Of a DNA stretch of 64,000 nucleotides, positions 1,306 to 35,325 are shown piece after piece (position 1 is the stretch's first letter; the number at the start of each line of letters is the position of its first letter). The stretch lies in contig CM067526.1 in NCBI GenBank assembly GCA_034509925.1, positions 14,331,510-14,395,509 of the forward strand, given 5' to 3'. Source of the DNA: Hirudinaria manillensis (Eukaryota > Annelida > Clitellata > Hirudinida > Hirudinidae). A program made the translations under genes and the position numbers. The notes beneath the pieces are model-generated. The model saw only the letters and a list, made by a program, of their open reading frames with translations, made no database searches and was not told the DNA's origin.

Positions 1306-2029
1306 AGCTCGAAACCGGCGTTAATCGTTGAGGTTTGAACACGGTCGGGATTTCCTTCATATGATTTTCTATTGATCTTTAACTGTTATTGAAAGAATAA
1401 CTTTAAATTAAGAAAAGGAGATTTTTCCATACAAATCTTTGAACGTTGACCTATTATGTTATGCCTGGTTATTTTCCCGCTTATATTATTAGGGTTAGGG
1501 TTAAGGTCAACAGATGACCAACTAAGTAAATTTAAAATAATTAATCGAATTAACTGGCTAATTGTGACTGCCCGAGAAACAGACACAAAATGATCGCCAG
1601 TTATATATTCTCTTCAGCCCAACCTCAATTTAAAATCTTGAATGGACCACTCACATTTTATTTCTCAATTATTGTTATTAATTAATTGTTATTACTGTTA
1701 TTAATTAACTTTTAAATGCTTTTATAATCTCGAGTTTTCTTCAGTGGTCTTCAGATTCAATTTGGTTTTCTTCGTTGAAGTTAAGCGGTTAACAACAGCA
1801 ACAACATAGTGAGGATAATAAAGCAGGATCCACGACACTAGTCGTCTCTTGCCATTGCATCACACACCCTTGGATGGTCTGTCAATCATAAAAATCAACA
1901 TGCAATAAAATTGAGTTAAATGACTTGAATTTTAATATAAAGTGTTATTATATAAAAAATGTGCATGAGTTAAGATCTGATTTTAATTGGAGCACAAATT
2001 TGCACTTCATCTGAACTGAAAAAGCTTAC

Positions 2030-2225
2030 TTGTTCTTAAATAATCTCTCAGTTTGTCAATAACTATGCTACTGAAATCCGGACTGCTTCTCAATTCAGCC
2101 CAGGTGGTTCTATCCAGATCTGACACCTCAGAGATTTGTCTTTCTGCAAGGAACTCGGTCATCCGGGATATATCTTCTTCACTCACGACTGCTGGACGTA
2201 ACACTCTTCTCAAAAAATCATCCAT
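2030..2225 (-). CDS. Alternative LKYFD first exon (minus strand)
   Basis: ATG at 2225 opens a 65-residue helical domain (MDDFLRRVLRPAV start, EEDISRMTEFL helix, W-A-E-L-R core, VIDKLRDYL end) that is clearly paralogous to the exon at 1247-1043. It ends phase 1 at a strong GTAAGC donor at 2029. No coiled-coil exon of its own is visible between 1248 and 2029. The simplest reading is an alternative first exon that splices over the 1247 exon into the shared exons at 575 and 283, which are phase compatible. It could instead be a lone duplicate without a downstream partner. Confidence 0.6.
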
Positions 2226-3329: not shown

Positions 3330-3850
3330 CAAGGCCTATTTGTGTTTCCACCGGAACTTTTTCCGGAAGTTAAAGAATGCCTGCCATCTAGGCCACCTGT
3401 CTAAAACAAAGACTACCGATCGCTTTTGAATGCTTGGAATTTAAAACATTCACGGCATCCGGGGATCCGTTGAAAAACGTTACACGGCTTATTTAACTTC
3501 CGCCGGAAGTTTTTCCGGAAGTTCCTGCCACCTAGGGCACCGCTCTAAAAGAGTAATCATTGATCGTTTAGCAATGCTTGGAATCTTTTAGGAATTTAAA
3601 GCATTTCCGGGGATCCGTTGAAAAACTTACACGGCTTCTTTAGCTTCCGCCGGAAGTGCACCGCCCTAAAAGAGCATTTATTGGTCGTTTAGCAATGCTT
3701 GGAATTTTTTAGGAATTTAAAGCATTTCCGGGCACCTGTTTAAAAAGACAACACGGCCTATTTGTGTTTCCGCCGGAACTTTTTCCGGAAATTAAAAGAG
3801 CCCAACCTAGTATAAAAGAATACTCATCGCTCGTTTAGGAATGTTTAGAA
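3330..3850. repeat. Tandem array with palindromic TTCCGCCGGAA elements
   Basis: About four diverged units of 130-200 bases. Each contains an ACACGGC(T/C)TATTT-like stretch, a palindrome related to ACTTCCGCCGGAAGT, a TTTTCCGGAA(G/A)TT arm in some units, CTAAAAGAG, and TCGTTTAG(C/G)AATG. The CCGGAAGT core matches the ETS-factor consensus. No coding potential. Confidence 0.7.
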
Positions 3851-12433: not shown

Positions 12434-13345
12434 TCATTTGAAAGCATCTTGCACATTTTTCTTTTCACCATTGTAATGTCTTTTTCTTTTTTCTCCAAGC
12501 TCCTTGTTAATTTTCAGTTGTTGATGTGCACAAGTTATCTCACTTTCTATTTCAGCAATCAAATTCTTCCATTTACCTGATTTTTTTGCTTAAAAAGTAA
12601 ATAAACAGACAAGGTTTGTAAATATATCACATTTTTTAATAAATAAAAAGTTAAAAAGAATTTTTTCTAATTATTAATGTCCTTTTTAATAACCTTTTAA
12701 GGAGACAAATAATTTAACTGAGATCATAATATGTAATTGTGGCCAAATAAACTTAATTTACTTGCAAATTTTAAACTTATGCTTCCTTTACAGCCAACAA
12801 ATCAATCAAAAATCACTCACCATGAGTTTGTGCCTCACGTTTTAAATCTTCAAGTTTATGAAGTCTTTTTCTAAACTCATTTTCTTCGTTTTCAAGCATT
12901 TTAAACTCTTCTTTTTCACATTCATTCAAATATTCAATTTTGTTGCTGGCATTTTTAATGTCCGTTTCTTTCTGTTTGGCTCTGTCCCGATCATTTTCAA
13001 GAATTTTAAGGTCATTGTTAACAAATGTTTGAAGGACTTCTGGACATTCTGCAATTACCATCACGATTATGATATTTTATTTTCCTCTTGCATCGGATAC
13101 ATATATATAAACCTCAGTATAGGTCGTTTCATAAAATGTAAATTGCGATTACCTTTACGAAGATAATCCTTTATTTTTCCAATAGAAATCACAGTAAAAT
13201 GTTGATTGGTCTTCAACTTTTTTTCGCACGTTTTGCTCATATCTCTCATGGAAAATATCCCAAGGGTTTCTAGAAAGCTCGTCATCTCCCGTATTTTATC
13301 ATCTTTAAACGAGGGAGGCAAAATGTTTCTTAGCGAACTTTCCAT
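12434..13345 (-). CDS. LKYFD-domain gene with two coiled-coil exons
   Basis: Three exons, 13345-13153, 13048-12821 and 12588-12434, both introns phase 1, giving 191 residues with an exact frame. Exon 1 encodes the domain (MESSLRNILPP, DDKIREMTSFL helix, SIGKIKDYLRK end). Exon 2 is a charged heptad-like coil of 76 residues (LKILENDRDRAKQKE and onward), and exon 3 a second coil ending KNVQDAFK. Donors are GTAATC and GTGAGT; acceptors are AATTGCAG and CTTTTTAAG. A small upstream exon at 13639-13609 (MMAGLDDSTI, phase-1 GTAAGC donor) could add an N terminus if the SAM-like exon is entered at GAGAAAG just before its ATG. No membrane segment. Function unknown; self-association through the coils is likely. 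Confidence 0.72.
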
Positions 13346-15195: not shown

Positions 15196-16138
15196 ATGGG
15201 TGAGTCAAATTATCATCCAGGTGAGAAAGAAATTGGAAATTACACAGATCAGCATTAAATTGGTATGGTATCATATCAGATGTATAGTTTGCCTGCACAC
15301 CTATTCAAAGTTCTAAAGGTTATAACTACATTTTGCTGTTGTTTATTGGTGTTTCTAATTTAAAATGCTTAAAATTTGTCAAATGTTTTAAGGGAAAATT
15401 TAAACTGCTTTAAATGTTCCAAATATTCAAATCAACATTTTCATATTTTTCAGAAATGAGTCTTGAAAATGCTGTTAATGAAGCATTGGAGGGTTCTGAT
15501 GAATCAAGAATTGAGTCTGTTGTTGTCATTTTAAGAAATGGAGGTGCAAGCAGAGCAGACGATTTGAAGTATTTTAATTGGAGTTCATTGAAAGACCTCA
15601 GAGAATTGACAGACATGGAGATCAATAAACTCATGAGATATGTTAAGACATGTTAGGCAATCAAATATTTAATATAATTAGATTAATTAATATGTAAACA
15701 TGTGATAATATAATATTTTAATGAAGCTTATAATAATGTCATGAATGTTTACAATCATGTGCTATCTTATTGATGTCTGCATTTAGTTTCATGGACGAAT
15801 TCTGTTAAATAATTATTAATTTAAGAAATTTATATTGTTATTTAAATTTAAATTAATATTAATTAATGTTGAATCTTTACAATATGCATCAAATTTCAGA
15901 TCATCCACAAGAATATGAAGAACACAAAATTAAAAAAGTTTTGGAGGACAAATTGCTTCGAGACAAAGAACTCCTGGAATATGGCAACCAGTTGCAGACA
16001 GAATTGCATCGCGAACAATTGAGGTTCAATGAAGACGTTAATAGAAGGAATTATTCAGAGCATGTTATTGAACATCAACATCCTGCAACCCAAAGAACTG
16101 ACAACTGGTGGATTTTGTTTTGGTTTAATTCAACTTGA
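15196..16138 (+). CDS. LKYFD-domain plus coiled-coil protein 1
   Basis: Exons 15196-15199 (ATGG before a perfect GTGAGT donor), 15454-15651 and 15900-16138, all introns phase 1, 146 residues in total. If the four-base exon is not used, translation can start at ATG 15456. Residues ~5-69 are the domain: EALEGSDESRIESV, GASRADDLKYFNW, SLKDLREL, MEINKLMRYV. The last exon begins with the family signature H-P-Q-E-Y-E-E-H-K and forms a coiled coil, then ends with an aromatic tail (NWWILFWFNST) that matches the start of the membrane segment of the gene at 25400, so it may be a weak membrane anchor. AATAAA at 16139-16144 almost touches the stop codon. Confidence 0.7.
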
Positions 16139-16144
16139 AATAAA

Positions 16145-16915
16145 CCTTTAATTTATTTTTTTCTATCTTTGGAAGGGAGGCTACTACAAATTTTATACGG
16201 AGATTGTTCTGTTGCTGTGGTAACTGAAATAATTACGATAGGTGGAAACTGATGCCACATTCGGGGAAACATTGGTAACTGCTTTGTGACTGATCACCCG
16301 GCTTGTTAACTAATTAAAAATACAGATTTATTAGCCTGTTAATCGATTCAGACTTCCAATACAACATACATTCAAAGATGTTTGCATTTTTGTTCTGAAG
16401 TTTGATTTATTATCGAACGTTATTTTGATCGTTTATTTAAATTGTTGACGAACCAACTAACTTAAAAAAGCACATACGGATGTTTCTGAATAAAGCCAGT
16501 AGTGATAACACTTGGTGTGTAATGCAGTATTACGACAATGTTAGGTCACAAATACTTACCAAACATTTTGCAAATATAATGGAGATAATTCATTGTTATT
16601 AATCAATCAAAATTACGGGGAAACAATTTGGAAGCACTTGGAACTATTGGGTTTCCCCATGTTTCTTCGGTTCTTCATCAAATCGACTGTTAATTTTTTT
16701 AATTAATTATTAGTCACAATTTTTGTCGTTCTTCTGTGGTTTAAGTCTTCAACATTTTACATTCGTAATTTAGTTTGGCCCGAGCTGGATTTACTTACTT
16801 TTGTAAACAAGATCAGGGGTTATCCCCATATCGTATTGCGGCCAAGTTGGAAACTTTTTCTTAGCTCGATAATTCCATAAATATAGCTCATTTTATACTT
16901 GTACATTTGTATTAG
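16145..16915. other. Intergenic between the first two plus-strand LKYFD genes
   Basis: No exon seen. AT-rich. A TATA-like ATAAATATAG at about 16877 lies some 40 bases before the ATG at 16918 and could drive the large gene directly. Confidence 0.4.
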
Positions 16916-16917
16916 AA

Positions 16918-19900
16918 ATGAATATTGAGGAAACTATCAATAAACTGTTTGATGGATTTGAACCACCAAGAGTGAATTTCATCACAAATGTTTTTATGGA
17001 GAAAGGCCTCGATACAGTTGATAAGTTGAAAACTTTAGATTCAGATTTTTGGGAATCTCTCAGGGGATTGGAACATGTTGGCTTGAGCTTAGACTGGAGT
17101 TTTGCTGAAGAAGGTCTGGAGCTTATTTAAGTTTTTTAATGCTATTTGTTTCCTTAATTAATTATTTAATTGAACAAAATTAGATTCAAATTATTACAAA
17201 AGTTGAGTGGGGGGATATCCCCTTGGGCAGCTTATTTCTTCTTTTTTCCTTGAGTTTTGTATTTGGAGAGATTTATAATTAATTTCAATTGCTGCTAACT
17301 AATTAATGTTAATGTTAATTAATTAACTAATTAATTAATAGAATAAAGATTATTTTGAAAATTATTAAAAAGTTGAGCATGCTTGGAAATGGAGAATATT
17401 TAAACATCTTAAGATTTAAGACATCTTTAATAACAAAATCAATTTAATTTAGTTGAAGAAGCTACCAAAAAGGCTTTGGAAGGTTCTCATGTCTCAAGGA
17501 TCAACTTCTTTGCAGAAGTTTTGAAGGAAAATTTGGAACTGAAAAATTTGAAATGGTTTGGATGTAAACATTTGGATGCTATGAAAAAGTTAACAAAACC
17601 TGAACTCTGTGAGATCAGAAGAGTTGTTAACAAGAGTATGAAACCTGTTTATTTTAATTATTAATATTCAGATATTATGATAATGAAATAAGTAATTATA
17701 CTGATATTACACATCGTATTATGCATAAATTTTTTGTTTAAAATATTTCTGTGGCTTTGAACTCAGAATTTGATCCAAGAAATGTACTGACATTGTTTTG
17801 ACATTTTCTATTTATCCATTCAAAGTAGTTAGACATGTAATAATTAATAATGTTTAGAATCTATGAGATTTTATATTTTTATTATTACAGAATTTGAGGA
17901 AGATGATAATGATGAAAGCAATGGTTTTTGCTTGTACTTTAATGCTTCAAATTTAGAAAAAAAAATAAAAATGTATGGGGAGTTTAAGGTAAAAGAAGCT
18001 TTCAAGGAATTGACGGACAATGAATTTGAGAAATTTAAAGAAAAAGGTTGGAGAATATTCTTTAAATCAACTTAAATGAATAGTTTTCAGATTAATTGAT
18101 AATATGATTAAATTGATAATATGTTTAATAAGACTAGTTAATAATATGAAACAATTTCATTTGCAGTTCAGATTTGCAACTCTATTTCAGGTAACATAAC
18201 CATGACGAACCAAATTTTAAAACATGCACCACTCTTTCGTTGAGTTTTATAGTGAAAACATCATAATAAAACTTGATAACTAAATAGATATTAAATAGAT
18301 ATATTAAATAGATATTAAATAAATATTTATAAATGTAAATGGACTTTAAAGAAGTTTTTGCTGGGTTATATTGATGTTGACATTTTTTTGTGAACAGAAC
18401 TTGGGGTGTCAATTGGAGAGTTTCTTGCTTCAGCGATATTTGAAGATCAAAATGATCCCAGGATCAGTTCAATTGCTGGAGCCTTAAAGAAATATAAGCA
18501 AATACAAGTGGTATATGGATTTCTTCATTCCGATTTGATGTTTTCAGAGGATCTCAGAGGATTTGATGAACTTGATTTTAAATTATTAGAGACATCTTTA
18601 GAAAAAAGTAAGCAGTTTTGTTAAGTTCTTATAAACATTTATGATGTTTAAATGCTTTATTTCTGAAAATCTGATAAAGAAACATTTCATCCTTAATCAA
18701 CCAAACACCTGAAAACCTTTAAATTAACATTAACATAAGTTTCTAAATGTTGCTCTCAACCCAACCTACACTTCCTTCAGACCAACTAAAAGTATAATTT
18801 AAATGTAAATGAATTAAAGTACTTAATAAGAATGGCAGTAGCCATATTAACAATTCCTTTTGGTACAAATGATGACATCCTGCAATGTCAGTTCATGGAA
18901 CTTAGCATTAAAAATTGATATGATGCAAAGCATGGTTGAAACTTTGTTTATAACTGTTTTATTTTTTAAAGAGCTTGAAGAATCTGTAGCTGAAGCATTG
19001 GAAGATTCTGGAAGATTGAGGATTAAATTTGTCACAAAAGCTTTAACAAGACAGAGTCTATGGGATGCTTATAAATTCTTTTCTGAGGAAGATGATTTTG
19101 GTAATTTACTTAGAAATTTGGAAATTATCCAAGAATTTACAAACTCAGAGATCAGTAATTTTGTGGGATTTACTCACAAAAGTTGGTAATTTAACACTTT
19201 GTTATCATTAGCACATATTTTCTCTTACTTATCTGAATTATAATCTCGTAAAACATTTAACAGGCATTAAAGAAGTTATCAGTGAAATATTGGATGTTTG
19301 TGATGATTCAAAGATTGATTTTATTACAAAAGAATTGAATAGGATTGGAATATTTGAGCAAATTCATTTGATTGAAATGGATCACAAGAGATTGCAATAT
19401 GTTCAAGGATTAACTGAAGATGAGTTGAATAAAATCAAGGTATTTATCAGGAGAGGTTAGAAAAAAGTTAAATATTCTATGAATTTGAAATATTTTTAGT
19501 TATTACTATTATTTGTTTATTTATTTCCATTGAGTTATTTCTATTATTTTTATTTTTAATTATTGTGAACATGGATTGGATGAAACTTCTGATGAAAAAA
19601 AACATTTCACAGTAGAAGATCTGACTTTAACTGAAATCCTGACTGAAATTATGAAAACTGACAAACGAAGGACTTACTATTTAAAGAATGTGTTGGAAAG
19701 TTGTTTCGGATTTGATTCAACGAGGTTACTTGGCGTAAACTGGAAATCCTTGGAGGTCCTACTGGGACTGAATGACCTCGAGATCAACAAATTCATGGAA
19801 TTGATACAAATAAGTCTTGGAGGATTGACTGATGTGGAAATAAATAAAATTACAAGATTTCTTGAAATAGGTTTTGATTCTTTTAAACTCTTAAATTAAA

Positions 19901-22900
19901 AAACCTTGTGTTACTTGGCAAAACTGAAAGTAACAAATGATTGATTTAAAGTTTAAAAATTACAGAAATGGCCATTGAAATGGCAGTAACAGAAGCATTG
20001 GAAGGTTCTCATGAATTGAGGATAAACTTCTTTAATGAAGTTTTGAAGAATAATTTTGATGTGACGGATTTGAAACAATTGGATAAGAAATACATGGGTG
20101 CACTGAAAAAATTGTCAAAAGCTGAGTTCCATGAAATCGGAGAATGCTCTTCTGGTGTGTTTTGCAATATTAGAGAGCTGCCTGGTCAGAAAATTTTGAG
20201 CCTTGCAGTCTTTAGTAGTTTAATTAAGTACTACTATTAACTTAATTAATTTAATTATAATTTGAAAGTATTTAATATCAATTTTAAATTAAAAACAATT
20301 TAAATTGAAGCAATTTTCAATTTAATCACTGATTGATAACTTTGTAAGATGTAATGGCCTAATGAAGTAATTGTTTAATTGCTTGCTGGTGGAATCTCAA
20401 ATAAAACAACTTGAAGAAAAATATTTAAATTGTCCATATTTAATGTCTTTGACTCATAAAATTGACACAAAAATGTTATTGGATTAAACTGGTCTGAAAT
20501 AATAAAATTATTTTATAAAAATAACAGTTTAATTTAAAGTAAACAATTGTTTAAATAAACTTTATTTTTAATTTTTCAGAAATAATGATGGAACATGAGA
20601 ATGACATTTACAAACTACTTAGAACTTGTGGTTATCTAGATGATGATGATGATGATGACGATGATCATGACCTTAGTAACTTGAAATTGAAGTTTTTCAT
20701 ACACAATTGTATTTCTGTTGTTGAATATTGCGAAATAGTTGGATGTCTGAAAGAAGCAAATGAGTTTGAAAAACTTAAGAACTTTCAAAAGTTATTTGAA
20801 GGTACCAAAGTGTTCCAATGAAATGAAGATTTGGTGTTTATTAAAGTTAATTAAATGTTATTTTAATTACAGTTTATACGCCTATTAAAGAAGTTCTTAA
20901 TGAAATATTTAAAGAATCTGATAGCTCTTTGAGGATTGATGCTATTGCTGAAGTTCTGAGGAGGCATCGTGTGTTTGATGCAGGCAGTTTAGATTATTTT
21001 GATTTTGAAATCCTAAATGATTCTCAAGAACTTTCCATATTTGAGATAAATAGAATAAAGGATTATGCTCTGAAAAGTTGGTTCTTTTCAAGGTTTTCAA
21101 AGCATATTTCAATTTTTGTTGAGCATTCCAAAAAAGAATGAGATGTAAATTAAAAATATTTAATGTATAAATTGTTTTAAAATTTAATTTTAAAATATTA
21201 ACCAAGTTATAAATATTAACCAAGTTATAAGTTCAATGCTCCCTTTGCACATGGAATTCTACTCTTAATAATCCAAATTATAATTGACTTTATTGATGAC
21301 AAATAAATTAATTAAAGTGAATTAAATCCATTATGAAATCTATTTTAACTTCATCCATTTTGAGATTCTTAAATTTGTGAATGTCTAATATTCTTTTGAA
21401 AAAAAAATTATATAAATAACTTGTGCAGGGCAGGAGATGACCATTGAAGAGGTTCTTGCTGAAATATTGGATGATCCTGATTATGATAGAATCAAGCATG
21501 TTGCTGATGTTTTTAAAGAATTTCATGATATACACATGGCTAAAGATTTAAGGAAACATTGTTGCTTACATGGATTAGGGAAGATTGATGTGTTGGGATT
21601 TAATGAATTGAGGAAACATTTCGAGAAAGGTGAGCATGTTTATGAATTAAATTGCATAAATTTGAAATTAATTACTTAAATAATTAAATACTTTTATTTT
21701 TGAATATGATTTCATGTTCTTATGATTTTATGTTCATAAGCAAGATTTGAATGAAAATCACAATTGATAAAAATTGATAATCCTTCAGTTTTTCATTTGA
21801 AATGTTCTGTAAATTACTCATTACAACTTATTATAAAGAATTAATATGATTTTCACAAAAATAGTAATTGAACAAGCTGTAGCAAGAACATTAAAAGATT
21901 CTGGTGTTTTGAGGATCAAATTTGTTACAAAAGCTTTGATGAGGAATGGACTTGGAAATGCATACAAATTATTGTATCCGATGTTTGATGAACCGGACAA
22001 CCCACAACCAATTGATATTTCACACGATCTGTCAGATTTTGAGATTGGTAAAATCGTGGCATTTGCTCGTAAAAGTTAGTAATTAATGTCATTGCTGTTA
22101 TGATCTAATATCGCTGTTATTATTAATAAATTTTAATTGTTAAAGTCATAATTTAAATTTTCATTGCCTCGTTTTCTTTCAATTCAGATTAAATTATATA
22201 ATAAATTTATTAAACTATATATTATATAATTTAATTTATTATATATAATTTATTACACTATATAAGAAATTTATTATATAATTTAATCTGAATTGAAGGA
22301 AAATAATAATAACAGTGATATTACATTATATAATAAATTCAAGGTCTTAAAGAAGTCCTTGCAGAAATATTGGAAGGTTGTGATGATTCGAGGATTGATT
22401 TTGTCACAAAAATATTAAATAAGAAGGGAATTTGGAAGCAATTTCACTTGATTCAAATGAAATATAGATTGAAATATGGATTGAAGAACGTGCAAGGATT
22501 GAAAGAGGATGAAATTTCCAAAATCGATAAATTTGTTGAAAGTGCAAGTGAGGTCTAAAGATCGTATAAATTAATCTGCATTCTATTTTTAGCTAAATTA
22601 GTTTGTAAGGGTTTTTTTAATATTGTAAAGTATTTTGTAAAATTGAGATATATCTAAATTAGTAATTGATAAATAGATTAATTATACTTTAATAATAAGG
22701 TCTGATAACGTGTGATGTAAACTGCATTTAATCTTAAAAATTTAATTTAATAACTTTTTTGATTTCATGATGCAGGCAGAGGGGATGTTGAACTATTTGC
22801 AAGGAGAATATTTGGAATTTCTGATGTCAAAAGAATTAATTTCATTGTATGTGTCATGAAGGAGCATTGTTTATATAATGCATTGTATTTATCACATAAT

Positions 22901-24978
22901 GAATGGGAATTAATGGAGGCTCTCAGGGGATTGAATGAAACCGAAGTGGAAAAATTCCTGGAAATTATTCAGAAAAGTAGTAAATTTAAGGATTTTAAAA
23001 CATCTTAAAATGATTTTTAAATTAAGAAAAATTAAAAAATATTGAGACTGAAAGACTTATGGATGTGTTTGGAAATGTTTAAATTTATTTTTAATATCAA
23101 CAATGTCTTGAGATTCTGTTTTAGTGTTGAGGACAACAGATGAGAAAAAAAATTAAATTAAATTAAGTTATTGTTCTTTTCAGCTCAGTACATTGAATCC
23201 ATCAGATGCAAAAGAAAGAATCAGATGTCAGATTCATTAGAATTAATTTCAACTAATAAAAGAAGGTTCAGTGGTTTTCTTATTGCATTATTTCTCTGCA
23301 AATTATAATAATAAAAATATATTATAATAATAATATCATTATATATGTTTTAATATTAATTTTTGTTTCAAAAGAGGCAGTAGTCCTTATTTTCAAGAGT
23401 TTTACACTTAAAGTTGCATTAACCTGCAAACACATTCATCCAAGTATCTTGAAAATTAAGTTTAAGGCAACAAAGTGTTTTGTTTAAAATATCTTAAATT
23501 ACTTTTTGCCAGCAGTTGTGGTGTTTGTAATTGATATAATTGTTACTGGTGTTTCATGAATATTTTACAATAAAATTAAGTCAGTGCATCACAACTAATC
23601 CAAGTTATTAACACAACTGCCAACTGTTGACCTCAAATAATGCTTATATTATATTAACTCAAAAAAATTAGGATAAGATTATTTTTTGGAGAACATTGTA
23701 TTATTTTTTAATTACACTGAGGCAATTTTTAAAGTAAACTTTATTCATATTTTAAATTTATTTCAGAAAAATTCCAAATGGTTTGTTGGGGGGTTTAGTT
23801 GAGACTTCTGAATCAGACAATCCTTGTGAAATAAGTAATTTAGAATTCAATTTTAAAAAAATAAATTCCTTTATTTTTTAAATTAAATTGTTTTTTGTTT
23901 TTATTCATTAATTCAACAACATATTATCTGACACCCCAACAATCTAATGAACCTCACACATCGAACAATTGTAACAATTTCATTTTAATATTTTAATAAT
24001 TTTTACAATTTAAGTGAAATAGGTTTAATTTTTCAGTGAAAGGAATTGAACACAAGTTTGAAGTTGTTAATAACAAGATTGAAGTTGTTAATGACAAGAT
24101 TGAAGTTGTTAATAACAAGATTGAAGTTGTTAATGAGAAGTTTGAATTTATTGAAAACAAACTCAACAATGTTCTTAGTCAAAATGCTACTTTGAAAAAA
24201 ATGTTGGAGGAGCTTCTTCAACAAAAGAACAAAGGATTAGACAGAATTGTTGATGATGGAGTGTTTGACAACGAAATGAATTGTGCTGAATTGCCAACAA
24301 CAGCATCGAATACACAACCTCAGATCATTAAATTTGTTGCCCAAGGAGATGAAATAAGAGGACTTAACCTTTTTAGCTTGCCTCCTTTATTCAGTCAAAA
24401 GAATTTTGAAACAATTACAAACAATAACTTACATTTGCCAATAAAAACAAATAAGGAGTTTCTCTCTGTTGAAATTAAATTGAATGAATCTCAGGACTTT
24501 TATAAGTCACTTGTAGGTCTTTATGCTTATATTTTGTAACTTGTAATTGTAAAATATTAATTTAAAAAAAAACAGGTAAAAATGATTTCAAAATGTGGTG
24601 GATCAAATGTCAGAGATGCAGTTTTCAGAATAATGAAAATGTTGCTCTCCCATGATTTGACTTTAAACATGACTTGGTCAGGCAAAGTTCCTGGGAAGAT
24701 GGGATTTCAAAGCTCAAAACTCATGGGAGCAGTTGCAGGTGAAGATACTTAATCCTTGAATTAGTGATCTGCATTATTACATAAATCATTATCATTTCAT
24801 TATAATTAATTAGTTAATTCCTTGCTTAATATTTCAAGATGCGGTGAGGATGAACCCCATGACATCAACAGCAACGGATGCAGAATGTGAATCATTTGTG
24901 AAGTCGTGGCTTCGAAATGCTCCTGACAGATACGGAGGGAGGAACAAAAGACGTGAAAGAAGGAACGCAGATTTATGA
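16918..24978 (+). CDS. Fourteen-copy LKYFD array fused to coiled coil and DUF4806
   Basis: Nineteen exons reconstruct to exactly 1,254 residues. Coding exon limits: 16918-17113, 17453-17635, 17891-18046, 18398-18607, 18972-19181, 19264-19455, 19613-19870, 19966-20154, 20580-20801, 20873-21076, 21429-21629, 21865-22074, 22344-22547, 22776-22976, 23184-23265, 23767-23834, 24037-24512, 24576-24738, 24839-24978. Internal exons 2-14 are all class 1-1 and each holds one helical domain; those at 17891 and 20580 are the most diverged. Two linker exons follow, then a coiled coil with repeated NKIEVVN heptads (24037-24200) and a C-terminal DUF4806 domain. No signal peptide or membrane segment. It is likely a large intracellular scaffold. 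The weakest junction is the GTCTGG donor after exon 1. The product may really be many splice forms, since any internal domain exon can be skipped in frame. Confidence 0.68.
24413..24978 (+). other. DUF4806 domain at the end of the array gene
   Basis: Spans the last three exons. Visible family landmarks in order: LPIKTNKEFLSVE, then CGGSNVRDAV-x-R-I-M-K-M-L, a MTWSGK core followed by K-M-G-F, the DAVRMNP motif, and TDAECESFVKSWLRNAPDR before a basic GGRNKRRERR tail. These match my memory of DUF4806, a eukaryotic domain of unknown function that often follows a coiled coil and sometimes occurs in transposon-related genes. The basic tail may be a nuclear signal or bind nucleic acid (inference). 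Confidence 0.78.
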
Positions 24979-25097
24979 ACTCAGAATTTTAATGACGTTG
25001 TTATTGTTGTGCTTCATCAAGTGCCTTGTTGCATTTCAACCATTTTGTTGATACATTTTCCATATTTCTTCTATTTGAACACTTTTTGGTCTCAAAA

Positions 25098-25103
25098 AAT
25101 AAA
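25098..25103 (+). terminator. Poly(A) signal of the array gene
   Basis: AATAAA 120 bases after the stop codon at 24976-24978; the sequence beyond is A-rich. Confidence 0.5.
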
Positions 25104-25399
25104 ATTTTGAAAGATTTCCATTTTAATGATGAATTAAAAAAAACGGCATGTTCCGTCACTGACTTGTTAATCCATAATTAAAATGAAGTTATAATTTTTT
25201 AAATATCTGGTATTGGACACTAAATTGTTTTTATCAGCCGAAATTGATCAATTATTTTTATCCCTGGCGCACAACAGCACCGATAAAAATAGCTTTTTTG
25301 GTTTCTAAAAACAGAAAGCTGGAAAATCCCCGAATAAGCTGTTCAAGAGGTGAAATAGATGGGCCGCATCCGCGAAAAAAACAACAAAAGATTTGAAAG

Positions 25400-26326
25400 A
25401 TGGATGAAGGTGGGATTATTTAAAGTATATTAATTAAAATAATTATTTAAAACTATTTTGTTGAACCAAAGTAATGCCTTTCCAGAAGTTGAGGAAGTCG
25501 TCAAAGGAATTTTGGAAGGTTCGAATGTTTCGAGGATAAAAAAAGTAACGGGACTTCTGAGGAAGGAAGGCGTCAACAGAGCAGACGATTTGAAATATTT
25601 CGATTGGAAGTCTTTGGAGGAACTTAATGGATTGTCAACAATGGAGATAGAGAAGGTCATGAGATTTGTTCAACAGAGTCAGTTGTTTGAAACAATTTCA
25701 CTGAATTTCTTACGTTATATTTAATTATTTTTATATCCATTAATAGAGGAGATTTGACTTTTAATTGTGGTCAAACTTGTCAAGAATTTTTAGAAATTGA
25801 TGGTAATAAATTTATTTAAAATACTTAATAAAAATGCCATTTATTACTTAAATTTAAAAAAAATTGATGGCAAATGAATGTGTAACAAGATTATATTTTA
25901 TTTATGAATTACATTAAACATTAAATGCAGTATTAAATTACAGTGCTAATATTTATAAAATATTTGTGAATCCAAGATTTCCCAGATGAATATCGAGAAC
26001 ATAAGAAGAAAAGGAATGAAGAACTGAGATTGGAAAGGGAAACTGAACTTTTAAATTTTAAAGTAGAAGCTGAAGCTTCGTTGCAAAATGAATCCTTTGA
26101 ACGAGAGAAAGTCAGGAAAGAGGTGGAGGACAATCAATTTGAATTTTTGGAAAGAAGTGGTGGCCAGGAGGTTTTACCATCTCATGGAAATAACGAGTCT
26201 TGGTAGAATAATTAAATTGTTTTAAAGTCCTTTGGTTTGTTATTAACAAGACTTTGATTAATCTTAATCAGGTGGTTGCTATGGTTAGCTATGTTATGGC
26301 TTTTAGTTTCAAACATTCTGAGGTGA
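25400..26326 (+). CDS. LKYFD-domain, coiled-coil, membrane-anchored protein 2
   Basis: Exons 25400-25409 (MDE plus one base, GTGGGA donor), 25486-25677, 25977-26202 and 26272-26326; phases 1, 1, 2; exactly 160 residues. The domain (VVKGILEGSNVSRI, RADDLKYFDW, MEIEKVMRFV) is followed by N-F-P-D-E-Y-R-E-H-K-K-K and a coiled coil. The last short exon encodes a strongly hydrophobic helix (WWLLWLAMLWLLVSNIL) and stops at AGG-TGA, giving a C-terminal membrane anchor with almost no tail. The stop codon lies inside a perfect GTGAGT donor, so read-through by splicing is possible. Downstream, 26626-26900 holds decayed copies of further exons seen intact at 29568 and 29942. Confidence 0.7.
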
Positions 26327-26625
26327 GTATTAATGTTTTTGTTTAATAATTAGTTTTCAAAATGGTTGCTAATCTTTGGCATTCTTTAAACTTCTTCAAA
26401 ATTAATAAAAATTAATTTTAAACTTTAAACTTCTTCAAATTTAATAAAAATTAATTTTGAAGAAGTTTAAAGAATGTCATTGGTTATTAATTCCAAATGG
26501 TTTGAGTCCGGCATGTCTAATTGTTTAATTATTAATAGTTTCTGTAATGTATTCAAATATAGCTTTCCACTTACTCATGAAATATAAACATATAAGATAA
26601 TATATTTTGAATTATAATTGAAAGG

Positions 26626-26890
26626 TGGTTCCAAAGGCCCAGAAAAGTCCATTGACAAAGCAATCACTGGATTATTTGAATTTTGTAGGCATTGAAATTG
26701 TGATAAGTTAATGTATATTTTATTAAATAATGTTATACTACTTTATTGCAATAGTTTGGGATGAAATTAAAACTAATTAACAAGTTTAATCATCAGAAAG
26801 CATAACTCACAAACATTAACCACATTTTTTTTATTTTCAGAGCACAAAGAGAATAAAAGTGAAGAATATTTGATTTGTGAGCTCTGAAAA
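26626..26890 (+). pseudogene. Decayed LKYFD and coiled-coil exons
   Basis: A remnant of the exon at 29568: K-G-P-E-K-S-I-D-K-A-I-T-G-L-F-E-F then a premature TGA. At 26842 comes a remnant of the exon at 29942, H-K-E-N-K-S-E-E-Y-L and then TGA, missing its Y-P-E-A-Y start. Both sit in the same order as in the downstream duplicate, so this is the broken 3' half of an older duplicated gene. Confidence 0.65.
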
Positions 26891-26899
26891 TATAAAACT

Positions 26900-28032
26900 C
26901 AGGCAAACATCCCAAAGTGGCCGAGTTTTATACCAAGTTTATTAACAAAACTTTTAAGTTTCTTTACACTGATAAACGGAGGATGTGAAGTCTGAATCAA
27001 AAATAATTTTCTTAATTCTTGAATATTTTAAACCTGTTCGCAACTAATTGAAATACACACTTAACAATTAGGGTTTCCTTCCAAATAAAAAAAAAATGGC
27101 TTGCATAAAGCTAGCCGGGCGTAAATTACCATTGTTAAAAAGCCTAGATATTACGCAGCCGGGCAATAATCGAAGCAATAATTCGAAATCTAAAACTCAA
27201 AAAATAAAAAAATTGGCAAAATGAAAATATTTTATTTGCACTTATTTTGTCTGGGGTTATTTATTTTCGGTTGAAATGTAAACAACTTGCTAGCTCAATT
27301 TCGGGCAACCGGCTGGCCTGATGCAAGTGCATAGAAACAGTCTCAAAGTTACAGACCATTTTGACCGATTTAAAAATCTTTTAAATGGATGTTTGAGAAG
27401 TATGTGGAATGTCAGTCAGTTGTTAGTACATTTGTTTACTGATTTATGTATGGTTTTGCCATGAGTCACTGGCGGGTTTGGTTTTATTCAACTATTTTCG
27501 TTAAGAAAATATTTTGGTTCAAAATACGCATTCAAAATATTGACAAAAAATATTCTAGAAATATTTGAGATTGTTGTAAATAATTATAGGTGCTTAATTA
27601 ATTTTCGGTGTAGCATCCCTACTTTTTTCTAAGTGGGGAATTCCAGGCATAATCACTCAGGCTGAGCTCGATGTAGCAGTTACATTGAAATTTGTTTCGC
27701 TTTTTTTAAACAAAATAATAAATTTTTAAAGTTACGTATTAATTCGAGTCTCTCCTTGAAACTAAATTGAAATTTCCAGCAAAGCAGTCACTGAATTCTT
27801 CTTAATGCCTGCCTTTTGAGCCTATGCATATATTGTATATTAACAGCATTTCTTACCATAAATAATTTGATTAACCTTCAATAAACGTTTGGTCTAAAAT
27901 ATTGGGCATCTTATATTTGTAGTTTTGATATAACTCAATTCTTAGGATTAAGTGTGCTAATTGTTATAAGTGTTATAAGTGTTTCAAGACATTAATTAAC
28001 GAAATGTCTTTAATTTTATTCTGTCCACACAG
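26900..28032. other. Non-coding part of a duplicated segment
   Basis: No exon. Parts align by eye with 30110-30560: the GTCACTGGCG stretch (27464 and 30339), the AATAATTATAGGTG stretch (27582 and 30438), and a GGAAATTCC or GGGAATTCCA core that follows each. Confidence 0.5.
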
Positions 28033-28034
28033 AG

Positions 28035-30105
28035 ATGGATGTTACTGAAGTTGTGACTGAAATGTTGAAAGGTTCTACTGATAGCAGGATTGATGAAGTT
28101 GCAAACCTCTTGAAGAAGGGAGGTGCAAACACTGCAGACGACTTGAAATATTTTGATTGGAACACCTTGAATGATTTCAGAGGATTGTCAAACATGGAGG
28201 TCAAGAAAATCATGAAATACGTTCAAGAAAGTGAGTCCATTTGATTAAAAGCATAAAGTTATCATTGCAATAAATATTATGCAACGACTTCTGTTCTGAC
28301 ATTGGAAGTGGTCGATAAAAAGATTGATAATGATAAATGAACTTTGTCATGAGCCTGAGCATCAGAACTGATTTGACTTGATATAAGCTGATAATTATAG
28401 TTATAAGCAGTTAGCAAAGAAAAACAAGTTCAAATTCAGTAAGCATACAAAAGATATTGTGTTGTTCACATACACTTTTTAAAAAATGCATCAACTCAGA
28501 AGTCTTGCTAATTCAGTTTCTTTACTTAATTCATAGCTCAGTTTATTTATTTATTCATTACTCATTATTTGCAACCCAATACAGTTACTTGTCAGTAAAA
28601 ATAAGTAATAGTTAATAACTTTCTTTACAAGTAATGAATTAGGGTTAGGGTTACATCACTGTATGATGTAAGACATTATCATCATCTAGCAATTACAAAC
28701 TATTATATTAATAATAATAATGATATCTTTATTAATTATTAAATTATAAATCTTGAAAATCCCACACAAAATGGTAACAAAAAAAACCTAATCAATGAAT
28801 TTATATAACATAAAAAATGAAAAAAATTGCTTTTATACAAATTATACAATGTAGAATATAATGTGCAATATTAATAATAATATTTTCAAAATATTATAAA
28901 ATATTTGTAATTCCAAGATTTTCCTGACGAATATCAGGAGCATAAAGAGAAAAGAGACAAAGAACTGAAACTGCAAAGAGAAACTGAACTTTTAAATTTT
29001 AAAATTGAAACTGAAGCTTTGTTGCAAAATGAATTATTTAAACTGAAGGAGATCGGGAAAGAAGAAGAAGAGGAAGAGGATGATGATGATGATCATGGAT
29101 TTGTAATTGTGGAAGGAGACACTGATGGTGAACTTTTACCGTCTCAAGGAAGTTATTCTGGAGTGTTATGGTATGATCTTTATGAAATCATAACATTTCA
29201 AACTCTTAATGGTTTGTTGTTAACAAGTCCTTGATTATTAATCAGGCTTTTGTTAAGGATTGTATCGTGGCCCCTAGGTTCAAACAATGCAGGGTAAGTA
29301 GCAATTTAATTTTCTTAATTTGATCTCAAAATAGTCACTCATTCTTTTAATAATTTTGAATTAGTTTGGTAAATTCCATTACTTATTATCTCCCATCATT
29401 TCTCTCTTTGAAAACCATTCAAGGTTAGCATACCTGGTAATAGTAGTTTCTTTAAGGTTGTAAAGTGTATCTTCAAATTTCTTATTCTCAGATGTAAACC
29501 TATAAGCAAACATATATTTTGAATTATATTGATTTGAAAAGTGATGTCATAAAATACCATTTCAAAGGCCCAGAAACATCCGTCGATGAGGTAATCCCTG
29601 AATTATTTGAAGACTCCTCACAGGTTAAATCCGTTACTGAAGTCTTGAAAAGGAAAGGTATAAGATCAGCAGATGACCTGAAATATTTTAATGAAAAATC
29701 ATTGAAAAATCTTGGATTTGAAGAACCTGTGATCAATGCAATTATGAAGTTTATAGAAAAAGGTTACAAGTTCAAGTAACCATTTGTCATTCAGTTTTGG
29801 GCTAATGTGTTAATATTTTATATTATTACTACAACTCATCATGTATGGGCCACAATAGACATTGTGATTAACAATTAACACCTAAACATTAAAAAGTTTA
29901 ACTCACACATTTAATTTTATAATGATTTTTTTTATTTTTAGAGTATCCTGAAGCGTATGAACAGCACAAAGAGAATAAAACTGAAGAATATTTGCGTAAT
30001 GAGCTCTTAAAATTTAAAACTGAGGCAAACATCCTAAAGCAGCCAAACTTTACAGCAAAACTTTTAAATATGTTTATGTCAAAAAATAAAGAAAGTGAAG
30101 TGTAA
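28035..30105 (+). CDS. LKYFD-domain protein 3 with two alternative 3' ends
   Basis: Exon A is 28035-28230 (domain, ATG start, phase 1). Set 1: 28918-29170 (coiled coil, N-F-P-D-E-Y-Q-E-H-K start, then an acidic E/D run) and 29246-29297 (hydrophobic WLLLRIVSWPLG, stop GGG-TAA), giving 166 residues. Set 2: 29568-29762 (second domain, 64 residues, SADDLKYFN core) and 29942-30105 (coil beginning Y-P-E-A-Y-E-Q-H-K, stop TAA), giving 184 residues. Both sets keep frame from exon A. Set 1 into set 2 does not, because exon 29246-29297 would end phase 2 while 29568 needs phase 1. So either one gene makes a membrane-type and a soluble two-domain form, or set 2 belongs to a separate gene whose first exon I cannot see. 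Confidence 0.62.
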
Positions 30106-31190
30106 ATACAATTTTTTTGATATTCTTGCATATTGTAAACCTGTTTGTAACTGATTAACAATCCTTTTCGAATTGGTCCTTCCTCACGAATAAAACTGCA
30201 TCGAATGTCGCTTATTTGTCTTGAAGTCTCAAACAATAGTGGCCGAATCATAAATATTTTAAAGAAATGCTTGAGAAAAGTGCAGACCTCCAGCCGGCCC
30301 AAAGGCATGTATAGAGTGTTAATTTGGTTTCGCCAGGCGTCACTGGCGAGTGCGTTTTTATTTTTCAACCTTCGGTAGGAAATTATGCATTCTAAATATT
30401 TGTACAAGAAATTTTATAAATGACTTAATTTATTTTGAATAATTATAGGTGGTTAATCAAATGTCAGCGTATCATCTCTGCTCATAAATGAGTTGGAAAT
30501 TCCAAACATCATCCTGAGGAGGCTTTTGTATTTCAGTTTTAGTATTTTAGTTCCCTTGGAATTTGTTTTTAGGTGTTAAATAAAGCTTTAAAATGTATAC
30601 CGTAATTCGTGTCTCTGAACTTGTTAATTCGTAACAAAGTGATCGTTAGATTTATCTGTTTCTTGGTCAAATCTGCTGAAAGTTTTACTAAATTCAAGTG
30701 GTTATTTTTTTGGCGAGAGTTAATAAATTATAAATAAGTAAAAGGTTTGCACGCATTGACATACATGTATAATGATAAATAACCACTTTCTTAATCTCTA
30801 TTGAACCACTTCAGAAGTGAAGCTTTGAAAAACCGGGAGTCACAGGTTTATCTATTAACATCCCAGATATCAACTGCATTTGTAATTGAAGTTAAGTTAC
30901 TGGCTAGTAAATAATATATATTTATTTGCAATAATTAAAAGATGTTTTCCATGAGAACTGTCTGTATTTGATTTATTTAAAGATATTTAAAGATATCAGT
31001 ATGCATTCTTTGCCTATGATTGGTTGAAATAAAACTTTGGATTTGGTATTCATTTCCAATCATTTAAGTTATATCTTAATATCACAATAATCCTTAGAAT
31101 AAATCAATCATGACCCTTTTATATTTAGTTTGCTAATACCACTCATGGAAAATAACATGATAATGTTAAATTGTATTTCAAAAATTTATT
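30106..31190. other. Intergenic, no gene supported
   Basis: The first part mirrors 26900-27700 (segmental duplication). The remainder is AT-rich without exons. A 169-residue open frame on the minus strand (30407-29898) overlaps the real exons in antisense and shows no domain. Confidence 0.45.
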
Positions 31191-31202
31191 TTGCAGACAA
31201 GG

Positions 31203-33581
31203 ATGAAACAAGTCATAGCTAAAATATTGGCAGGTTCCAGTGATAGGAGGATTAATGAAGTTACTAGACTCTTGAATGATGCAGGTGTGAAAACAGCAGA
31301 AGATCTGAAATATTATGATTGGAACAACTTGAAGGAACTCAGAGGATTGTCAAACATGGAGATCAGCAAAATCATGAGATATGTTCAGGAGAGTTAGTTA
31401 ATTTGATTTCGTTAAAAAGCACAAAAAATAATAAATATTCATAATAAATGGTGTAATTATTTAAATATTTTTGTAAAATAATCTTAATAATGTACATTAT
31501 CTAATATTTTTGTATATTTACAAATATATAATCAATTAATAATTAATTAGATATAATAAAATATATCACAGGTATAAATTTTAAGACTAAAACAAAATTA
31601 AATTCTTTAATGAATTCGTTGCAGATTTTCCTATTGAATATAGAGAACACAAACAGAAAATGGCTGAAGAGAGGAAGATACAACACGAAACTGATATTTT
31701 CAACTTAAAAGTCCAACAGGAGAAAAAAATTCAGGAGGAGAAAAGGAAGATTGAAGAAGAAACGGAAAGAAGACTGAAACAACAACAAGAAGAATTTGAT
31801 GAATTACAAAGGAATGCTAAAGATGAAATTGAAAAGTTGAAGCAAAATTCATCACTTATAACGATCGATATTTTGGGAACAACTAGAAAGTAAATGCTCT
31901 TAAACATCGTTTTTGTCATGTCCATTTTGAAACAATCATGAAGCATTTTAATCACATAACTATTCAAATTTCACTCAGATTTTTTGTTTGCAGTTTATGT
32001 GCAAATATTAAGAAAAAATTTAAATCTTCAACTGGCAATATGGAAGGTGAAAACATTCATGCAATCAACAGTCATTTGAGTTGTCAGCATTTATCATTGT
32101 TTAGCAGTGTTTATACTTAAATTTCAAAAAGCTCCAAAATCTTAGCTATATTCTTGTTATTTGTTTGTCCACAATACTGTTTGTACAATAATATACAAAA
32201 TAACAGATCAATAAAAATAATTGCAAATAATTAAATAAAATTTTCTTTTAAGAAATCATTTGCAGAATATTTTATGGATTTCCTGTGGAAAGAGTTAATG
32301 AAATTAAAGGAATTTTCCATGAAAATGGTGTGGAAACAGAAAATGAATTTAAATATTTTGATTGGAAACTATTGGACAATTTTCAAGGGTTAACAAGTGC
32401 AGAGATCAACACAATCATGGATTTTGTTAAAGAAAGTTAGTTTCGATATGATTTGTATCTTAATGACATCTTTTCTGTGAATATTTTAATGCAAGACAAT
32501 AATTATTACATTTTATACAAGTATTATATATTGATAATAATTAATATGTTACATTTATTATAATGTTTGCATTACGTTCAAATGTTAAAGCTATAGTAAC
32601 ATTTCTTAGGTAAAACTGTTGTTGCTTGTTAGAATTGGATACTTAAAAAAAAGAATTATAATGTAAAATAAGAACTTATTTTTAAAATTAATTTGATGTG
32701 AATTACATGTGAATTACCATGTTCCTTTCAGAATTTCCAAAAGATTATAAAAGACACGAACAAAGAAGAGATGAAGAGAACAGAATGAAAAAAGAATTTG
32801 CAGAATTTAAACCAGGTTGTACACTAATGTTTTTAACCCCACAAATATCACCACTCTTGTCATCCACTATGCCTAATAACTTGCAATATAAAAACTTGGT
32901 GAAAATATTTAAATATTTATAACATTTAAAAAATTTTGAAGTGGCAGATGGAAAGGCAAACATTGAAGAAGCCATTTCCAGAATATTTTATGGGTTTCAT
33001 GTGCAGAGAATTGATCAAATTAAAGGAATTTTCCATGAAAATGATGTGAAAACAGAAGATGAATTGAAATATTTTGATTGGAGGGCATTGGATGATTTAC
33101 AAGGAGGGTTAACAAGTGCAGAGATCAACAAAATCATGGATTTTGTTAAAGAAAGTTAGTTTTAATCCAATTTGTATCTTAATGACATTTTTTTCTACAA
33201 ATACCTTGTTGTCAAACAATAAATATATTATATTTGATACAATTATTATATTTATTTAAACAATTGAATAATAATTAACATTATATAATTAACACATTGT
33301 AATGTTTCTCATTATATTCATGTATTAAAACCATAATAAAATTTCTTAGGTAAAAACTGCTGTTGCTTGTTAGAATGTGACAAATCTGCTGTTTAAAAAA
33401 GAAAGTATTATAATGTAAAATAAGAACTTATTTTTAAAATTAATTTGACGTGAATTACATGTGAATTACCATGTTCCTTTCAGAATTTCCAAAATGTTAT
33501 AAAAGACACGAACAAAGAAGAGATGAAGAGAACAGAATGAAAGAAGAACTGGCAAAATACGAAAATGCTGCCAGCTTTTAG
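31203..33581 (+). CDS. Three-domain LKYFD / coiled-coil protein 4
   Basis: Seven exons: 31203-31392, 31625-31889, 31994-32046, 32253-32435, 32732-32815, 32948-33154 and 33484-33581; phases 1, 2, 1, 1, 1, 1; exactly 359 residues. The order is domain 1 (KQVIAKILAGSSDRRI, TAEDLKYYDW), long coil starting N-F-P-I-E-Y-R-E-H-K with a run of E, K and Q, a short basic linker, domain 2 (CRIFYGFPVERV, FKYFDW), a short coil (KFPKDYKRHEQRR), domain 3 (SRIFYGFHVQRI, LKYFDW) and a last short coil. Domain 2 plus coil and domain 3 plus coil are a very recent tandem duplication including introns. No membrane segment. The 5' exon border lies at TTGCAG (31191-31196), which implies an untranslated first exon. Confidence 0.7.
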
Positions 33582-33631
33582 CATCAGTTGCTCTTTGAAC
33601 ATATTTAGAATGAAATCATGGAACCTGATTG

Positions 33632-33632
33632 G

Positions 33633-33708
<76 letters not shown>
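33632..33708 (+). repeat. (GATT)n microsatellite in 3' UTR
   Basis: About 19 uninterrupted GATT units between the stop codon at 33581 and the AATAAA at 33772, so it lies in the 3' untranslated region of the three-domain gene. Confidence 0.9.
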
Positions 33709-33710
<2 letters not shown>

Positions 33711-33771
33711 AATGTGAACCACAGAAATGTGAACCCAATCCTAAATTTATTTATGTGCTTCAACAATTGTG

Positions 33772-33777
33772 AATAAA
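33772..33777 (+). terminator. Poly(A) signal of three-domain LKYFD gene
   Basis: AATAAA about 190 bases after the stop codon. Confidence 0.45.
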
Positions 33778-34343
33778 AATGACAATATTTAAAACTTGAT
33801 TTCTGATCTTCTGGAGTCGTGATTAATTTTAAATAAATAAGCCAGTTTTGCATATTTACCATAAAGTGAAATAATATGCAAATATGAATAAATTTAGTTT
33901 TCGAGAAATTTGCAAAAATGTGAAGTTCCTAGTGTTGTTGTTGGTGGCTTTTTGCATAAAGAAACTTGGAATTTCCGCGAGTGTTGATCGTGGCTTTCTC
34001 AGATTATTCCATTAATTTCCTGAATAACTAAATGCATAATTTTCAATATTTGACTAAAATTAAAAAATATTAAAATAGATAGGAATTGTTGCTAATAATT
34101 TATAAGGGTGACCAAAATAACATCGCTTGTCTTCAGTTTCTATTAAAAGAAATTTGGGAAAACCCTGCATCATCAATCGTTTGAGAAAGTCGAATTATGT
34201 TCTGGAGTGAGAATTGAGTTCTTTAAAACGTTATAATATATTAATTTAAATATTTTATCGATTAATGACAATATGATGATTTAATTAAATAATTAATTTT
34301 CCTTTTAAATTTCAAACACAAATTCACTGAAAATTGAACAGAT

Positions 34344-35325
34344 ATGTCCGTCAAAGATACAGTCTCTGAAATTCTGAAGGGTTCTCCAGAAGCCAGGATC
34401 ATCCAGGTTGTTGATGTTCTCGAAAGAGGAGGAGTTAGTACAAGAGATGATTTGAAGTATTACAGCTGGACTTCATTGAAGGAATTTGGAAGTCTCAGTG
34501 AAATGGAAATTAATAAAATCATGAGATATGTCCAAACAAGTTTGTCATTCTGAATATTATTTTGCCTCAATTGTTATGATCATCATCACAGATTTTATAT
34601 ATTAAATATTTTAGTTATGAATGTGTCATCATCATCATCATCACCATCACCACCACCACCATCATCATCATCAGAGCTTGTTGTTTCATAACTAATGACA
34701 CATCATCAACTTTCATTTAATCCAAACTCCAGTCTGCTGAGAAAATATATAAATAGAAATATTAGTGTTTAAATCTAGTATTTTTGTTATTTTCAATAAT
34801 TCTCCTATTAAATTGTTATTTCTGAGATTATCACGTAATTAAAGTTTGTTTTAAAATTTTACAGACTTCCCTGAAGAATATAAAGAGCATAAATTGAAAA
34901 AGGATGAAGAGGCAAGATTGGAGAGGGACGTTGAACTCTCCAACCTTAAAATTGAATCGGAGAAAGAATTGCAACGAGAAAAAAATAAGCATCAAGAATT
35001 AATGCACAAAAAATTCATTCAAATCGACATTCATCCGAATGCAGAGGAATGCAAGATGAAGTCGAGGAGAGCCGAGCTTTCGGTCGGCGGAGATCGTCTG
35101 AAATGCCCTCTTCAGATCTTCATCTTCATCATCATCATCATCTTTGCTTTTATTGTAAATTCACCCCTTTATCTGTTGCTAGGAGGCAGTGTTTTATTTA
35201 TCGTTGCCTATCATTTTGATCAGAATGGCCAAGTAGTTCAGTGGAAGCTGTGCATTGTCATTTACTTCGGCAGTCTCTTCATTTTCCACATCATTCCTTA
35301 CCTTGCAGGGAGCACAAATGCTTAG
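34344..35325 (+). CDS. LKYFD-domain, coiled-coil, multi-pass membrane protein 5
   Basis: Two exons, 34344-34539 and 34865-35325, phase-1 intron, 218 residues. Residues 1-65 are the domain (SEILKGSPEARIIQV, TRDDLKYYSW, MEINKIMRYV). Exon 2 starts N-F-P-E-E-Y-K-E-H-K and forms a coiled coil to about residue 105. Then come three hydrophobic stretches: CPLQIFIFIIIIIFAFIV, YLLLGGSVLFIVAYHF and LCIVIYFGSLFIFHIIPYL. This is the only family member with a clear multi-pass C terminus. With the domain and coil on one side of a membrane, it could act as a membrane-bound recruiting partner for the soluble members (inference). AATAAA follows at 35569. Confidence 0.72.
34625..34674 (+). repeat. (CAT/CAC)n run in intron
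   Basis: A run of TCA and CCA triplets inside the single intron of the membrane-type gene. Confidence 0.8.

Follow-up and report, generated by a model that had tools for sequence, protein, structure and literature searches.

A probable tandemly expanded gene family with predicted SAM/helix-hairpin-helix-fold heads and coiled coils in the annelid Hirudinaria manillensis

Introduction

A stretch of 64,000 nucleotides from the annelid Hirudinaria manillensis (NCBI GenBank assembly GCA_034509925.1, contig CM067526.1, forward-strand positions 14,331,510 to 14,395,509; hereafter the window) raises the question what a small helical domain is that is encoded there by exon after exon, and into which kind of proteins it is built. 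A preliminary description, made from the sequence letters, had regarded this domain as undescribed and as the product of massive exon duplication. Our best explanation, to which we assign a probability of roughly 0.6, is a tandemly expanded animal gene family whose members would combine SAM/helix-hairpin-helix (HhH)-fold heads with a coiled coil and, in several cases, a membrane tail, and which might serve as oligomerising, partly membrane-anchored scaffolds. The analysis covers the genome at 148 Mb in 23 contigs, the window being located on contig C1, and all genome-wide match counts given below are lower bounds.

Results

Copies of the domain in the window

An iterated profile started from five seed copies matches the window 24 times: 20 near-full copies on the plus strand spanning 15462-34541, one partial plus-strand copy (19816-19866) immediately 3' of a full one, and three copies on the minus strand. 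Without iteration, the five-seed profile finds 17 domain frames at an expectation value (E) below 0.001 (five of them the seeds), 18 below 0.01 and 20 below 0.1, while 20 Markov-shuffled windows yield no match to it, even at E<0.1. A chance origin of the copies was therefore rejected, and the existence of a repeated, exon-encoded helical domain is confirmed. The three minus-strand exons counted in the preliminary description were likewise recovered, albeit outside the interval 15454..34539 assigned to the repeat; its count of at least 22 plus-strand exons is not reached by the 20 copies and one partial copy that we scored. Two plus-strand frames in the divergent run described below, 17851-18075 and 20555-20821, have ends resembling the last helix of the domain (LTDNEFEKFKEKG; NEFEKLKNFQKL); our profile search did not pick them up, and they are possibly the extra copies of the earlier count.

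The minus-strand copies, all below 13.4 kb, form the most divergent group. The five-seed profile scores them weakly (E 0.015, 0.58 and 2.6), and a profile built from 29 other copies of the window and a second cluster recovers all three (4e-6, 6e-6 and 2e-4), with the restriction that its 20 window copies had been collected by an iteration that included the minus copies. Aligned with each other and compared with the alignment of the other copies, they match with 97% probability.

1044..1235, minus strand: divergent domain copy of the minus group (29-copy profile E 2e-4; iterated profile 1e-17)
2028..2222, minus strand: divergent domain copy of the minus group (29-copy profile E 4e-6)
13154..13345, minus strand: divergent domain copy (29-copy profile E 6e-6)

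By eye, a coiled-coil-like frame at 12816-13076 follows the copy at 13154-13345; the profile of coiled-coil exons introduced below does not recognise it. Near the minus copies, at 2838-3587 on the same strand, several short frames repeat an FPRWQ/CPRWQ-like pattern.

Exon phases and gene models

The proposal that the domain exons are of phase 1-1 largely holds. AG lies two bases ahead of the first full codon in 19 of the 20 plus-strand domain exons, 31203 being the exception, and a phase-1 GT is present in all 20, although it sits 19-55 bases beyond the matched end in 16924, 19627 and 21443; both dinucleotides are common, and the counts stand without a computed chance rate. The conserved serine with which the domain ends mostly results from reading through the splice donor A|GT. 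As the exons are symmetric in phase, copies can be added without breaking the reading frame.

The preliminary description had missed the exon that follows the strong copies, as well as membrane segments, the second cluster and two full-length relatives, to which we return below. This exon opens with FP/YP-x-EY-x-x-H or a near variant, after which it encodes a charged coiled coil. We compared 12 domain/coiled-coil exon pairs, of which the window contributes eight and the second cluster four. In every one, AG is placed exactly two bases ahead of the F/Y/H codon, an acceptor that fits the phase-1 donor ending the domain exon; a 13th look-up, in stretch L020 where no domain is known, yielded no motif. 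A profile made from the beginnings of these 12 coiled-coil exons recovers, in the window and at E<0.01, only the eight window exons that went into it; two weaker matches, at E 0.015-0.02, are a short one at 13782 and a broken remnant at 26777.

Since coiled-coil exons with stops recur after the strong copies, we rejected a single giant gene for them. Of 12 gene models, nine can be spliced through to a stop codon without loss of frame: the window genes G15, G25, G28, G29, G31 and G34 and, from the second cluster, C1, C2 and C5, the latter three each with two successive domains. The earlier statement that the length of every reconstructed gene divides by three thus applies to these nine; G32a, G32b and C3, translated from or beside a phase-1 acceptor, lack an identified first exon and for this reason do not close. 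Start codons are assumed in the models, and the modelled part of G29 contains no methionine.

15456..15651, plus strand: G15 domain exon from the assumed ATG, acceptor 15454 (profile, splice sites, model)
15900..16138, plus strand: G15 coiled-coil exon, HPQEYEEH... (phase-1 acceptor, in frame to stop)
25400..25409, plus strand: proposed first coding exon of G25, M-D-E (in-frame splice to 25486)
25486..25677, plus strand: G25 domain exon (profile, model)
25977..26206, plus strand: G25 coiled-coil exon to stop, or alternatively to a donor after 26202 (splice site, model)
26272..26320, plus strand: proposed membrane-segment exon of G25, WLLWLAMLWLLVSNIL (in-frame splice from GT at 26203)
28035..28230, plus strand: G28 domain exon from the assumed ATG, acceptor 28033 (profile, splice sites, model)
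28918..29234, plus strand: G28 coiled-coil exon (splice site, model)
29576..29762, plus strand: G29 domain exon, acceptor 29574, no start codon modelled (profile, splice sites, model)
29942..30105, plus strand: G29 coiled-coil exon (splice site, model)
31203..31392, plus strand: G31 domain exon from the assumed start ATG, no phase-1 acceptor found (profile, model)
31625..31893, plus strand: G31 coiled-coil exon (splice site, model)
32253..32435, plus strand: G32a domain exon, first exon not found (profile, splice sites)
32732..32922, plus strand: G32a coiled-coil exon (splice site)
32948..33154, plus strand: G32b domain exon, young duplicate of G32a, first exon not found (profile, splice sites, substitution rates)
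33484..33581, plus strand: G32b coiled-coil exon (splice site)
34344..34539, plus strand: G34 domain exon, acceptor 34342 (splice sites, model, match to the relative P0122, see below)
34865..35325, plus strand: G34 coiled-coil and membrane exon (model, P0122 match, hydropathy)

Membrane segments are predicted from hydropathy. Values above 1.6, which we regard as membrane-grade, occur in four of the nine spliced models (G34, C1, C2 and, borderline, C5) and in both full-length relatives; the other five models lack them, and G25 would gain such a segment through the proposed exon at 26272.

A second set of plus-strand copies, more divergent in sequence, precedes most of these genes.

16918..23008, plus strand: twelve divergent domain exons, starting at 16924, 17452, 18430, 18974, 19266, 19627, 19974, 20884, 21443, 21867, 22346 and 22802, and one partial copy at 19816 (profile matches)
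24018..24539, plus strand: open frame lying downstream of these exons, whose coiled coil is of another, heptad-rich type (reading frame; library hits sub-threshold only)

It is possible that the frame at 24018..24539 is the end of the gene to which the divergent run belongs.

Full-length relatives

A full-length alignment of nine sequences (A3), searched against 5.8 billion proteins, returned two relatives among 7350 candidates (E 1.6e-54 and 1.9e-48). These proteins, P0122 and P0121, stem from the 'lgn' source and from contigs of 1133 and 991 bases; identity is 46% for P0122, across 99% of the query row, and 40% for P0121, across 48%. P0122 is collinear with G34 from end to end, including the junction RYVQT-N-FPEEY, and P0121 carries two tandem domains in the manner of C5. 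Both read through the predicted splice junctions, and their collinearity with the spliced models supports the splicing; uninterrupted frames on contigs of about 1 kb are what one would expect of spliced transcripts. The best genome matches of P0122 are the two G34 exons (domain exon 70%, coiled-coil/membrane exon 36% identity), and those of P0121 are the three C5 exons (60, 63 and 33%). These identities are too low for the same genes, so that the relatives come from another species or from genes absent from the assembly. They also reveal that the domain (60-70%) is better conserved than the tail (33-36%).

Searched alone, the 66-residue domain alignment found nothing at E<=1 among 159 scored candidates, a result of little weight since only proteins 0.55-1.75 times as long were compared. 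Viral contigs searched with one copy contained no relative, and P0121 drew 41 matches at E 1.4-9.6 from a viral structure library but none at 0.001. The two relatives had no PADLOC match at E<=0.1, and the motif letters led to no related description in the literature.

Distribution in the genome

The second cluster resides on the same contig, about 190 kb away at 14.553-14.562 Mb, and comprises nine domain copies, arranged as four pairs and one single; a weak match in stretch L017 (E 0.38) was left out of this count. Whole-genome searches gave at least 14 matches for a main copy, at least three for a minus copy, and at least 14 and at least 18 for the two full-length relatives. Every domain match falls on contig C1, either into the window or into the second cluster, and a lone match on contig C12, found with a relative as the query (E 3e-4, two stops), covers the membrane part only. 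Per 4-kb step, GC content amounts to 26-30% between 12 and 36 kb of the window, and to 34-43% (1-12 kb) and 36-41% (36-56 kb) in its flanks. Rfam yielded no match at gathering score. Just past the second cluster, a duplication of at least 2.5 kb (L019:7451-9955 and L020:5139-7696) contains many frames that are alike.

Predicted structure

AlphaFold models one copy of the domain with five helices (predicted local distance difference test 87, predicted template modelling score 0.72), and P0121 with two such domains, a 47-residue helix (142-188) and a C-terminal helix of low confidence. The 50 listed structure matches of the single copy align 55-62 of its 66 residues at 1.8-2.4 A and include the SAM domains of SLy1 (59 of 66 residues at 1.8 A), Eph and CASKIN. 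The predicted structure shares with the SAM families (SAM_1, SAM_2, SAM_TNK and SAM_EPH; SLy1, EphA and CASKIN) the five-helix layout and the long C-terminal helix that define this fold, and tandem pairs occur in the present family as in CASKIN; the CASKIN2 tandem pair aligns with P0121 over 116 residues, but at 7.0 A. By prediction, therefore, the domain has a five-helix fold of the known SAM/helix-hairpin-helix group and not a new one. The structure comparison backs the SAM-like layout suggested in the preliminary description.

Conserved columns mostly form the hydrophobic core. Acidic columns 35, 36 and 41 surround L-K-Y-F, columns 18, 38 and 58 are basic, and column 55, in the last helix, is strongly acidic; the column charges show no clear pattern. 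Polymerising SAM domains make head-to-tail contacts, and the conserved charges neither show nor exclude contacts of this type.

Neighbouring genes

HEATR1 (UTP10), at 6843-11423 on the minus strand, is encoded by an uninterrupted frame of 1527 codons. Of 120 matches listed out of 125, two close relatives stand out (86% and 83%), and none of the others exceeds 39% local identity. A tree of 32 rows, with bilaterian animals and fungi as the named ones, gives it a branch of 4.07 changes per column amid open forks, which shows fast change in this one protein. On the minus strand, a frame of 2402 codons lies downstream of frames that resemble kinesin motor exons; together, 38420-47052 and 58758-61665 are perhaps one large kinesin gene. 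Elsewhere, the genome holds 38 matches to the glutamate-receptor ligand-binding model (contigs C2, C5, C9, C11 and others), and the one exon fragment checked among them is AMPA/kainate-like among the best 60 of 251 PDB matches.

Discussion

Which named family, if any, does the domain belong to? The Pfam cut-off is reached by none of 32 copies, none of the four spliced models scanned (of nine) and neither relative, in agreement with the earlier failure to match the domain to a named family. It is named by neither Pfam nor NCBIfam, and in this weak sense only can it be called undescribed, its fold being predicted as a known type. That it is a SAM domain which has drifted below the Pfam cut-off is a possible reading, somewhat short of even odds, and one that is compatible with, and more specific than, our best explanation. 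Below threshold, the 32 copies match 16 Pfam families, with SAM_TNK (E 0.003) and SAM_2 (E 0.004) at the top, two members each, and P0121 attains 18.1 of the 20.5 bits required for SAM_2. In an hhalign comparison with SAM exons of the same genome (alignment A2, 19 of 29 matches; 21 were fetched, and two with stops omitted), the domain scores 22.5 (P 1.7e-4, 49% probability) in register over helices 2-5. None of 100 column shuffles reaches this value (maximum 13.1 with A1 shuffled, 11.9 with the SAM side shuffled), nor does a reversed alignment (12.1). The SLy1, Eph and CASKIN structures point in the same direction. However, the three minus copies on their own barely match SAM (12.8, 1% probability), and 29 SAM exons elsewhere in this genome pass the Pfam cut-off, so that lineage-wide divergence is not in itself enough to account for the low scores of the domain; judged by its sequence, the family is unusually distant from the SAM models, even by the standard of this genome. 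Moreover, when PDB sequences were searched with a profile, none of the 21 matches up to E 10 carried the name SAM. The best-scoring one (E 0.0038) resembles a designed protein; others are alpha-CTD (E 0.0055), DMC1 (0.2) and NusA (1.2). These hits, together with sub-threshold NCBIfam matches to RAD51 (E 0.0055, one member) and the NusA repeat (0.013, two members), would suit an HhH domain of the RAD51 N-lobe, NusA or alpha-CTD type, possibly binding nucleic acid. The HhH profile of the same genome even scores higher than SAM (26.4, P 1.2e-5, 81% probability; control maximum 12.6 with A1 shuffled, over the values recorded from 100 shuffles, at least one being unrecorded), but it was built from two sequences only. 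HHH_5 is not among the 16 Pfam families, and alpha-CTD gives 13.1 bits for a main copy against a cut-off of 23.8 (best E 0.022, two members). Unlike the HhH domains of RAD51/DMC1, the NusA C-terminal repeat or alpha-CTD, the present domain is found next to coiled coils and, in several models, membrane-grade segments, a context ill-suited to DNA binding. We hence consider this alternative, which fits the fold but not a scaffold role, doubtful. Collectively, the evidence supports the SAM/HhH fold group, but membership of neither named family. The death fold, the other layout entertained initially, has in its favour a small helical domain joined to a coiled coil in a tandem family, in a genome offering 17 Death-model matches for comparison. 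Death domains are six-helix bundles, whereas five helices are predicted here, and a profile from nine of the 17 matches scores 15.9 (4% probability) as compared with 22.5 for SAM and 26.4 for HhH; we rejected a death-fold adaptor family, which now seems hardly credible.

Two further explanations concern the history of the copies. They might mostly be decaying pseudogenes or fragments of mobile elements, and decay does occur: about 3 kb upstream of G29, a plus-strand remnant (26620-26995) resembling the G29 unit consists, on visual inspection, of the beginning of a domain exon and of coiled-coil sequence interrupted by in-frame stops, which points to birth and death of copies within the cluster, and the youngest pair, G32a/G32b, has a ratio of nonsynonymous (dN) to synonymous (dS) substitution rates of about 1. 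Against such an origin stand dN below dS in seven of nine copy pairs (one pair is saturated in dS), the acceptor preserved in every one of the exon pairs, the presence in another source of near counterparts to two of the genes, and the restriction of domain matches to two clusters on one contig; we regard it as very improbable. It is somewhat easier to conceive, though still unlikely, that an HhH/SAM module on a symmetric phase-1 exon entered membrane-anchored coiled-coil proteins and, as an invention at the level of the lineage, grew into a clustered and changing receptor or adaptor system for defence or self-recognition that is unknown outside this lineage.

The tandemly expanded scaffold family that we favour has to contend with a set of observations. 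In the window, the profile search recognises no coiled-coil exon of the usual type beside the twelve divergent copies (16.9-23 kb) or beside the minus copies, which weighs against our explanation and has lowered our confidence in it slightly. These copies may belong to multi-domain genes or to genes with other tails.

With this reservation, the data lend themselves to a simple working model for the proteins. Each gene would provide one or two N-terminal five-helix domains, perhaps more in the 16.9-23 kb run, followed in the strong copies by the coiled coil that starts with FP-x-EY-x-x-H and, in several members, by a predicted membrane hairpin or tail at the C-terminus. Where present, this tail would anchor the protein, its insertion and topology being as yet presumed from hydropathy; the coiled coil would pair chains, and the domains might bind each other or the SAM-like domains of partners, so that assemblies with a scaffold or adaptor function could form. 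The head-stalk(-membrane) layout resembles that of membrane-tethered scaffolds. Tandem expansion along with birth and death, as seen in the young pair and the broken copy, would be in keeping with a function in host defence or recognition, which the expansion suggests as a possibility. Invertebrate recognition families such as C1q form tandem arrays as well; their domains differ, and an immune function of the present family would be conjecture.

The findings reported here add a sequence family without a Pfam or NCBIfam name to a known fold group, and they provide a clean example of the exon-by-exon multiplication of a domain within a head-stalk(-membrane) architecture. If the clusters prove to differ from one individual to the next, or to react to infection, they would represent a new lineage-specific recognition system; otherwise, they would be a useful illustration of how much a SAM/HhH domain may diverge.

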